35,958 nt of DNA from Coriobacteriales bacterium (lineage in GTDB: Bacteria; Actinomycetota; Coriobacteriia; Coriobacteriales; UMGS124). How positions within the stretch are numbered: the stretch's first letter is position 1; the number at the start of each line of letters is the position of its first letter. Positions 21,920-25,057 of this stretch are shown here, one piece after another. The notes under the pieces are model-generated. The model had not been told where the DNA came from and did no database searches. It was given only the letters and a program-made list of their open reading frames with translations. The position numbers were made by a program, and so were the translations under genes. Where the stretch lies: assembly GCA_017515595.1 (NCBI GenBank), contig JAFWFL010000102.1, positions 1 to 35,958 on the forward strand, written 5' to 3'.

Positions 21920-23485
21920 TTACAACAGTGTGCATGCATGATTGGCGGCGTTGCGGCCGGAGTTAACGTTGTTAGCCATGGCGGTGCCGGCCATGTTTTG
22001 GGTATAGACATCGCGCCAAAGCATGGCACCGTCAAGACCTACGGCGTAAAGACCTGGTATTGGATAAAGATCCTTGTCGAGAACCTGAGCATACTTATTG
22101 GTCTTGATGCCACCATCAACAGCGACAAGAAGCATTACGAGCTTGGCAATATAGAAAGGTGGGTTTGCAATAGGAACCATAAGCTGGGGCATTTTACCAA
22201 AGTCCGTATCGATTCCGGTTGCACACAGCTCGTTGTAGCGTGCAATGGTTGTAGTGAGTGTCTCGGCATCAAGGTTAAAAGCCGTTGCTAAGCCTTCAAT
22301 GGAATCTGCTGTTGCAATACAATCAGAAAACTCACCTGAAAGTGCGCTCTCTATTGCGGCAATGTCGTCGTCATTGGTTTTATAGGAGTCAAGAACTGAT
22401 TGGTCAAATACGATGTAGCTCTCGCGGTTTCCAATACATGCCGGACCGGTGGCAGCCATGTTGACATACGCTATACCTTCATTGGTAAAGCGGTCTGCAT
22501 CCTGGTTTATCCAAATAAGGTTTCCTGCAGCAGCAATACCAAAACCACCGTTAAGCGGACTGTCATAGGGAGGCGTCATATCAACGCCAAAAGCTTTGAC
22601 TGCTAAAAATGTTTGATCACAAGTGTGTCCAAGCTCACTACGGCCTCCCGCTGCGATTGCCATAGTATATCCGTCACCTTCCACGGCGGGCATACCTTGG
22701 ACAATCATCTCGTCTAAATGCTGGCGTGTCCAGCCTTTTTGAGCAAGCAGCTTTTCATTATGGCCAATTCCGCCGGTTGCAAGAATAACAGCCTTGGCAT
22801 TGATACGCACTATACCGTTTGAATCTTCAGCAAGAAGACCTGCGACCTTGCCGTCTTCCAAAACAATCTCAATACCACGGGTATCGGTACGAATCTCACA
22901 GCCGTTCTTCTCGGCAGCTGCTTGCATGGGCGGAACATAGCCTATAGCGCCGGCGCTTCCTTCCCACCAGTGCATAGTCTGGTAAAGGCCGGTATGATAG
23001 TTATCAACAATGCCGCTAAAGAGGACGCCGTTCTCCTCAAGCCAGTCGATGTTCGCTGCTGAGTGTGAAACCATGTCATACCACATAGAGCCGTCAGCAC
23101 GGAATTGGGCTTCTTCGAGCTCCTTCGAAAGAATGTCGGCAGGAGCAATTTCAATTCCCTGTTCAATCTGGTAGTGTGAGTCGATGGCAAAGATCCCCTC
23201 GGTTCCCATGCCATTACCGCCTACAAAGCCTGCCTTCTCAATTAAGAGAACTTTGGTACCGTTTTCTGATGCCTGAACAGCTGCGGCAAGTCCTGAGATG
23301 CCGGCGCCTACTACACAAATGTCACAATCTATTTGGTCATAAGGCTCAACCGGTGAATCCTTTGTTTCTTCAGGGACATCAGCCAAAGCTGTGCTTACCA
23401 AAGTGGAAATTGCTGCAGTCGCTGCTGAGGCAGCAACAAATCCACGCCTTGATATGGCGCTTTTAAGACTGTTAGACATACTCAT
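21920..23485 (-). CDS. Tat-exported FAD-dependent oxidoreductase (third paralogue, smaller type)
   Basis: This 521-residue flavoprotein starts MSMSNSLKSAISRRGFVAAS, a Tat signal with a cut after ALA (about residue 35). The FAD site is VVGAGISGLAAAV (58-70) with E83 at the end of the second strand, and the GG of GFVGGNGMG (86-94) resembles the fumarate-reductase group. The C-terminus is GLYAVGLDGAMLWRDVYTQNMAG. It is about 85 residues shorter than, and clearly distinct from, the two genes at 5545 and 8482. No haem or FMN domain is present. GGAGGAT precedes the ATG. The tandem winged-helix regulator gene just upstream on the same strand is the likely controller. Confidence 0.9.
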   Translation of the reverse strand: MSMSNSLKSAISRRGFVAASAATAAISTLVSTALADVPEETKDSPVEPYDQIDCDICVVGAGISGLAAAVQASENGTKVLLIEKAGFVGGNGMGTEGIFAIDSHYQIEQGIEIAPADILSKELEEAQFRADGSMWYDMVSHSAANIDWLEENGVLFSGIVDNYHTGLYQTMHWWEGSAGAIGYVPPMQAAAEKNGCEIRTDTRGIEIVLEDGKVAGLLAEDSNGIVRINAKAVILATGGIGHNEKLLAQKGWTRQHLDEMIVQGMPAVEGDGYTMAIAAGGRSELGHTCDQTFLAVKAFGVDMTPPYDSPLNGGFGIAAAGNLIWINQDADRFTNEGIAYVNMAATGPACIGNRESYIVFDQSVLDSYKTNDDDIAAIESALSGEFSDCIATADSIEGLATAFNLDAETLTTTIARYNELCATGIDTDFGKMPQLMVPIANPPFYIAKLVMLLVAVDGGIKTNKYAQVLDKDLYPIPGLYAVGLDGAMLWRDVYTQNMAGTAMANNVNSGRNAANHACTLL

Positions 23486-23662: not shown

Positions 23663-24619
23663 TTATGTATCGCGATGTATCGCAGTATATTTTCTTAGAT
23701 TGCTGTACATACGCATGTACCAAACATTGACTACCATGATACCGTTATCGTCAAGTCCGGTGTGCGCCATGCGGGTCGCTTCGCTGAGTCGGTATGTCGC
23801 AGTTTGAAATGCTGTTCTTCCTTCTTTTGTTGGTTGAACTATTGAGCGTCTCCTGTCAAATGGGTCGCAAGCTTCACGCAAGAGCCCGCGTTCAATCAGT
23901 TTTGTTTTAAAGACAGAAACACTGCTACGTTCAATGAAGAGCTTTTGGGTAATATCTGCAGGATACATGGTGCCGTATTCGTCAAGTATCTGCAGCATAC
24001 GGTATTCAGTCAGAGCAAACTGTGACTCATGAGTTGTTTTTTCCCACACCTCTGCAATCGCACGCCAATATACTAAATACTCTGCGCCAAACCTTAAATC
24101 TGCCGGTTTTGGTCTTAATTCTTCCGGAATAGTATGTCCTCGGAGTGCATCATTGCTGTACTGTACCGAGTCTTTAAACTCAGCATGTTCTTTCGAAGAA
24201 AGAGATGGCATAAACACTACTTCAATAAGCCTATTAAAATCTTGTATTGCTTGCTCGGTAAGTACCTGACCTTGCGGAGAAAAACTACAAAGCATTGAGC
24301 GCATATCATCATGGAGGCTTTGTTTACACAAAATACCTCGGTCTTCGAGTTCCAGCATCATAGTCCAAAGGGTTTGCCGCTTGAGCATCAAAAAATCTGC
24401 CATAGGTTCCACAAGAATTGGTCTTTTTGCCTCAAACATAGCAACCAACAAGGATAGTTCACCATATGTAAGGTTATAGCCTTGCTTGACACATTTGGCA
24501 ATTAGACGAAGGTGCTCAAGAATAACCGTAATCATTTGGCTGGTACAAGCGACGTTTTCAACTTGATTTATGGAATGCGGGTATTTCACGGTTATAGACC
24601 TCTGCCAGACTAACTCCAT
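23663..24619 (-). CDS. Transcriptional regulator with two MarR-type winged-helix domains
   Basis: This protein of about 318 residues reads as two MarR-like DNA-binding units in one chain. The first (roughly residues 30-150) holds LTYGELSLLVAMFEAKRP and then LKRQTLWTMMLELEDRGIL. The second (roughly 195-315) holds FALTEYRMLQILDEYGTMYP and then RSSVSVFKTKLIERGLL and FDRRRSIVQPTKEGRTA, a classic wing. Single MarR proteins dimerise, so one chain could act as a pseudo-dimer. I give the ATG at 24619; a GTG at 24589 has AGAGG upstream and may be the true start. It lies between the Tat-FAD gene and the candidate selenoprotein gene, all on the minus strand. Confidence 0.75.
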   Translation of the reverse strand: MELVWQRSITVKYPHSINQVENVACTSQMITVILEHLRLIAKCVKQGYNLTYGELSLLVAMFEAKRPILVEPMADFLMLKRQTLWTMMLELEDRGILCKQSLHDDMRSMLCSFSPQGQVLTEQAIQDFNRLIEVVFMPSLSSKEHAEFKDSVQYSNDALRGHTIPEELRPKPADLRFGAEYLVYWRAIAEVWEKTTHESQFALTEYRMLQILDEYGTMYPADITQKLFIERSSVSVFKTKLIERGLLREACDPFDRRRSIVQPTKEGRTAFQTATYRLSEATRMAHTGLDDNGIMVVNVWYMRMYSNLRKYTAIHRDT

Positions 24620-24641: not shown

Positions 24642-24959
24642 TTAAGGTGCAACACCAAATACTATGTCTTTAATGCCGAGAAATGCTTTCATGTCTAATA
24701 AGAGTTTTCCATGAGGCCAAATACCTGCTTCTGTCCAGTCACGTACGTAAGCGCTGCTTATGTATATATTACCCAGTTCACCATGGATGATGTTTGTTGC
24801 GCATGACTCCAGGCGTTGAGCTTCTTCATCTGATAGCAGGCGAGCCAACTGCTCGTTCATCCCTGTTCAAGCCTTTGCGCAATAGGTATCCAAAAGGATA
24901 TGCTTCTTATTCTTTTTGCGCATGTATTTTGTTAGAGCGTCGCTGTATATTACTTGCAT
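24642..24959 (-). CDS. Candidate selenoprotein of the HesB-like/CC-Se motif type, with in-frame TGA
   Basis: Reading from the ATG at 24959 (AGAGAGG eight bases upstream) gives 30 codons (MQVIYSDALTKYMRKKNKKH...CAKA), then TGA (24869-24867), then 74 more codons in the same frame to a TAA at 24642. As one chain of 105 residues it has the build of the small HesB-like family that carries Cys or Sec in the middle: an N-terminal strand/helix with a basic patch, a Cys/Sec region, and a C-terminal LLLDMKAFLGIKDIVFGV. Eleven bases after the TGA comes a 5-bp stem CGAGC/GCTCG with loop AGTTG, the same spacing as the minimal SECIS of E. coli fdhF. The residue would be Sec31, with Cys27 nearby. If TGA is a stop, there are two tiny genes or a pseudogene. 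Its end lies 23 bases before the regulator start. Confidence 0.65.
24840..24856 (-). promoter_or_regulatory. Candidate bacterial SECIS hairpin
   Basis: After the TGA the minus strand reads ACAGGGATGAA (11 nt), then CGAGC, loop AGTTG, then GCTCG. A guanine in the first two loop positions, as SelB needs, is present. An alternative stem AGCAG/CTGCT with a larger loop also exists. Support is from position and shape only. Confidence 0.5.
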
Positions 24960-25057
24960 CTTACATACCTCTCTCAGATACAGCCATTCCATCATTCTTA
25001 TATGTAGGCAACAAGCTGTCTGTATCAAGTCATTATACCTCACCTCGTAACAAAATT

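Follow-up and report, generated by a model that had tools for sequence, protein, structure and literature searches.

The locus studied here raises the question of whether a TGA codon inside a small reading frame is read as selenocysteine (Sec) or ends translation. It lies in the window, by which we mean the whole analysed stretch of 35,958 nt of a Coriobacteriales bacterium (contig JAFWFL010000102.1 of assembly GCA_017515595.1). A preliminary description, made from the DNA letters alone, had proposed a small selenoprotein gene at this position; its coordinates were correct, and the strand, which it left unstated, is the minus strand. There, the frame 24959-24642 comprises 30 codons, the TGA (24869-24867), 74 codons and a TAA, and an AGAGAGG sequence is found about 8 nt 5' of the ATG. 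Thus, both the proposed codon layout and the ribosome-binding site are borne out. The plus strand of 24642-24959 has stops throughout. Translated with TGA as Sec, the minus strand gives a chain of 105 residues (MQVIYSDALTKYMRKKNKKHILLDTYCAKAUTGMNEQ...FLGIKDIVFGVAP) that carries YCAKAU up to residue 31 and ends with FGVAP before the TAA. An ATG closely after the TGA opens an ORF of 72 amino acids (24642-24860), which matches the 72-residue tail that automatic gene calling had been expected to yield. The features of the locus are listed in Table 1.

Table 1. Positions in the window of the selenoprotein gene, its signals and its neighbours.
Feature	Position	Strand	Basis
Selenoprotein gene, 105 residues, Sec31	24642..24959	minus	translation with TGA as Sec, full-length homologues across the TGA, AlphaFold2 model
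Start codon ATG of the selenoprotein gene	24959-24957	minus	
Stop codon TAA of the selenoprotein gene	24644-24642	minus	
In-frame TGA, residue 31, predicted Sec	24867..24869	minus	TGA in the same alignment column of 11 other homologues, Cys in most of the rest
Shine-Dalgarno-like AGAGAGG	24968..24974	minus	sequence
SECIS hairpin CGAGC-AGTTG-GCTCG, 16 nt from UGA to apical loop	24841..24855	minus	bSECIS rules, homologue comparison
Double winged-helix MarR-type regulator, downstream	23663..24619	minus	Pfam MarR and SarA/Rot-type domains; in-frame ATG at 24619
FAD_binding_2 flavoenzyme with SRRGF Tat signal	21920..23485	minus	domain and sequence

With the protein as query, relatives were found in all three genomes of its own family and in 12 of 298 genomes of its own class; a profile search detected them in 32 of 397 genomes of its own order, where about fifty homologues were found. 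A phylum-wide sample of 396 genomes gave two matches, both from the same order. The plasmid search returned no match, and the sequence search of the PDB nothing relevant. Matches to Streptomyces and Kitasatospora in a single-protein contig scan spanned only 20-36 residues, were chance-like and were set aside. Twelve TGA forms from several genera (the window gene included) each contain one in-frame TGA, which falls in the same alignment column throughout, within the motifs YCAKAU, YQPQCU, CYAKTU, TAHTU, TPHTU, KPKGU, KPKVU, PPMGUC, PPSGUC, CKSUGG and CVNUG. Among the 36 aligned members, this column at residue 31 is occupied by Cys (18), Sec (10) or one of Glu, Ser, His and Ala (8), so that 28 of the 36 have Sec or Cys, and homology runs across the TGA on both sides.

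A hairpin follows the TGA. Its stem (CGAGC/GCTCG, 5 bp) begins exactly 11 nt past the codon and closes a 5-nt loop (AGTTG) with G in second position, precisely as the preliminary description had stated. The rules published for bacterial SECIS elements (PMC13188914) ask for a 3-9 nt loop with G among its first two bases, a 4-16 bp stem, a UGA-to-loop distance of 16-37 nt and an MFE <= -7.5, and the window hairpin agrees with all of them (5-nt AGUUG, 5 bp, 16 nt, -10.9 kcal/mol). Within the window, 0.4% of positions fit this exact geometry (a 5-bp stem at 11 nt, a 5-nt loop with G among its first two bases, G-U pairs permitted). When the peptide was recoded synonymously, 5-7% of the versions formed a qualifying hairpin, and the z-score of the single-sequence fold energy is ordinary (-0.9). 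Taken alone, the window hairpin is mildly unusual and weak evidence. What lifts it beyond chance are the homologues, because their TGA falls in one column and the strict hairpin is specific to TGA forms. A loose definition with G-U pairs was too permissive; with the strict definition used instead (5 bp with no more than one G-U pair, a 4-6 nt loop with G among its first two bases, a distance of 10-14 nt to the codon), 10 of the 12 TGA forms have a hairpin and none of the 24 Cys forms does (Fisher p = 2.6e-7, not corrected for kinship). Column-by-column stem covariation was not above shuffles in an ungapped alignment that had three sequences out of register and one G136 codon omitted; this was a weak test, and no weight is placed on it. 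An Rfam search of the whole window gave no match.

The source genome (3.3 Mb, 134 contigs, 97.7% complete) was searched for selA, selB, selD and tRNA-Sec, as had been suggested, and all four are present on one contig (C32). The three protein genes scored above their cut-offs (selD 341.7 bits), and tRNA-Sec reached 63.5 bits, over its curated cut-off. A molybdopterin oxidoreductase gene (L095:6417-8753 on C32; PhsA-like match, below cut-off) adjoins this cluster. Among the 11 genomes carrying a TGA form, selA was found in nine but not in G389 and G378, whose assemblies are 72% and 79% complete. The preliminary description had also named findings that would speak against Sec, namely a genome lacking selB or tRNA-Sec, close relatives with a sense codon plus frameshifts, or homology that stops at the TGA, and none of them was encountered. 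Given TGA or Cys at the same spot in the relatives, the RNA hairpin and the full machinery, the TGA almost certainly stands for Sec. The earlier prediction of Sec31 is therefore backed by the machinery, by homology across the codon and by the SECIS rules. Judging from sequence, machinery and homologues, SelB and Sec-tRNA-Sec would be recruited by the hairpin after the UGA and would insert Sec at position 31.

An AlphaFold2 model computed from 36 sequences (mean pLDDT 93.6, pTM 0.83) was compared with known structures. The top seven PDB structure matches are chains of IscA, YneR, SufA, AQ_1857 and DsrR, the best being IscA 1r94 (E 3.1e-3, probability 1.00, TM ~0.5), and the two viral matches that reach significance are both IscA-type by name (best E 1.9e-4). 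In the model, Sec31 occupies the beta-hairpin loop that in IscA bears Cys35, the first metal/cluster ligand. A profile-profile comparison with IscA was not significant (probability 0.5%), yet it aligned residue 31 opposite Cys35. Therefore, the link to IscA is structural only.

We hold with high confidence that the product of the gene is a selenoprotein of 105 residues with a HesB-type fold, and readings in which the TGA ends translation have to be weighed against this. The TGA could be an ordinary nonsense mutation or a sequencing error, the gene being a decaying Cys form of which only a fragment is made. Such decay may have occurred in the G378 homologue (L093:201-404), where the frame with a TGA at the motif is shortened, the strict hairpin is absent and selA was not found. 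In G257 and G377, of the same genus, the site holds Cys. Possibly, the G378 gene is decaying, or the machinery is missing from the 79% complete assembly. For the window gene, decay appears highly improbable: the TGA column is common to 12 homologues from several genera, the frame 3' of the TGA is conserved and unbroken, only TGA forms have the strict hairpin, and the genome has the full Sec machinery. Even more improbable is an arrangement of two genes, in which a 30-codon leader precedes a separate 72-aa protein starting from the ATG at 24860. The closeness of this ATG to the TGA favours such an arrangement, but the homologues are single chains across the TGA point, unbroken in the Cys forms, and the model places residues 1-30 inside the fold, as its first strand, helix and second strand.

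A further alternative concerns the role only and is compatible with a selenoprotein: the protein might carry an Fe-S cluster or iron in the manner of IscA/SufA, with Sec as cluster ligand. The IscA/SufA-type fold and the position of Sec in the IscA Cys35 loop point in this direction; however, the Cys99-x-Cys101 pair of IscA is without counterpart, some paralogues have no Cys at all at the site, and Fe-S assembly genes are absent among the neighbours scanned. We regard such carriage as rather unlikely. As the most likely role, though with somewhat less than even confidence, we infer that the selenoprotein may instead perform thiol/selenol chemistry on a HesB scaffold at the Sec31 loop, rather than classical [2Fe-2S] carriage. 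Sec31 might be reversibly oxidised, or might bind a soft metal or a persulfide/selenide, often together with a nearby Cys, and could plausibly form a reversible selenylsulfide or a soft-metal site. A Cys is often found close to Sec, at varying positions, being adjacent in G001/G002 and G390/G392 and four residues before Sec in the window protein. This latter residue, Cys27, had been put forward as the partner of Sec; it is present in one of 36 aligned sequences, the window protein alone, and is thus not conserved.

Sec forms are scattered over several distinct regions of the tree, a pattern that takes no fewer than four changes of the Sec label. This scatter fits repeated exchange of Sec and Cys. 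In some paralogues the site is taken by His, Glu, Ser or Ala, so not every member needs a chalcogen there. The family includes paralogue clades in which the Sec/Cys site holds His (GHM) or Glu (VETAVEAG), comprising L079, L080, L081, L083, L085 and L076, L086, L087, L089; in several genomes, GHM paralogues adjoin a copy with Cys or Sec. The source genome itself harbors a Cys paralogue (contig C61, 703-1014), which suggests related yet separate duties of the two proteins. Next after this paralogue on C61 come azlC, azlD and a gene for a DtxR-type metal-dependent regulator (L096:664-2700). It is tempting, if doubtful, to regard these proteins as a separate HesB-fold (seleno)protein family, found in one order within the phylum as sampled, whose site swaps between Sec, Cys, His, Glu, Ser and Ala and whose Sec and non-Sec copies in one genome might represent a redox or metal-handling division of labour not described before.

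The ATG of the downstream regulator lies 22 nt past the selenoprotein stop, so the two genes are probably co-transcribed and probably form one operon, to which the gene of the Tat flavoenzyme perhaps also belongs. Both neighbours had been recognised as a tandem-wHTH regulator and a Tat flavoenzyme in the preliminary description, which considered a redox role plausible on their account. The neighbours are real, but the same context was not seen around the homologues, and the redox role is therefore backed weakly. A conserved gene neighbourhood was sought around the homologues and none was found; genes observed there include AzlCD with a DtxR-type regulator, a cytochrome c552 protein, a pyruvate:ferredoxin-oxidoreductase-type enzyme and a flavodiiron-rubredoxin protein. 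Given this variety, the context does not define function.

None of the NCBIfam models recognised the window protein, and Pfam gave chance matches only for this protein and 36 homologues. TIGR01911 (HesB-like selenoprotein, curated cut-off 66.35 bits) did not match the window protein and had no match at E<=1 in 16 genomes; the window protein is not a member of that family. NF041239 (CC/Se, cut-off 40 bits) likewise gave no match to the window protein. Its best match among the relatives was the Cys form of G408 (32.1 bits, E 1.6e-7, whole length, below the 40-bit cut-off), the Cys paralogue of the source genome scored 16.8 bits, and no family member in 32 genomes passed 40 bits. All matches being below the cut-off, the group is only remotely related to the CC/Se family and, by the curated rule, not part of it. 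Thus, a proposed HMM comparison with the HesB-like and CC/Se families places the window protein in neither, and of the label "HesB-like/CC-Se" the HesB-like fold stands, whereas the label merged two distinct families and neither curated model matched. Since the group is unnamed by current Pfam and NCBIfam models at their cut-offs, annotation would split or miss such genes. The selenoprotein gene at 24959-24642 is real and overlooked, and with it comes a divergent group of small selenoproteins, tied by structure to the IscA fold. The natural series of Sec, Cys and no-chalcogen forms, with Sec and Cys copies in one genome, provides a test bed for Sec on the HesB scaffold.

Compared with known systems, the IscA/SufA A-type carriers (1r94, 1s98, 2d2a) have the same fold and a reactive residue in the equivalent loop. 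However, they share only ~10% identity with the window protein, and of the three conserved Cys of IscA (35, 99, 101) only the first has a counterpart, Sec31, while the C-terminal CxC is missing. The HesB-fold proteins YneR and DsrR, fold matches of the model (9a4q_B and 2k4z), are to our knowledge without the conserved Cys set. The CC/Se family NF041239, or Moor_selen_rel, was first predicted in Moorella thermoacetica and resembles the window protein in its length of ~100 residues and in having Sec or Cys-Cys at a comparable site. The HesB-like selenoprotein (TIGR01911) was 75Se-labelled in Methanococcus maripaludis and described as a distant IscA relative whose function was called unclear (PMC11097638). 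It differs in its UxGP motif (listed in PMC13188914), which is absent from the window protein. Both are small, with a single Sec, and the distant relationship to IscA described for the one agrees with the IscA fold that the model gives the other; what Sec contributes to the HesB scaffold is a question that applies likewise to the archaeal HesB-like selenoprotein.
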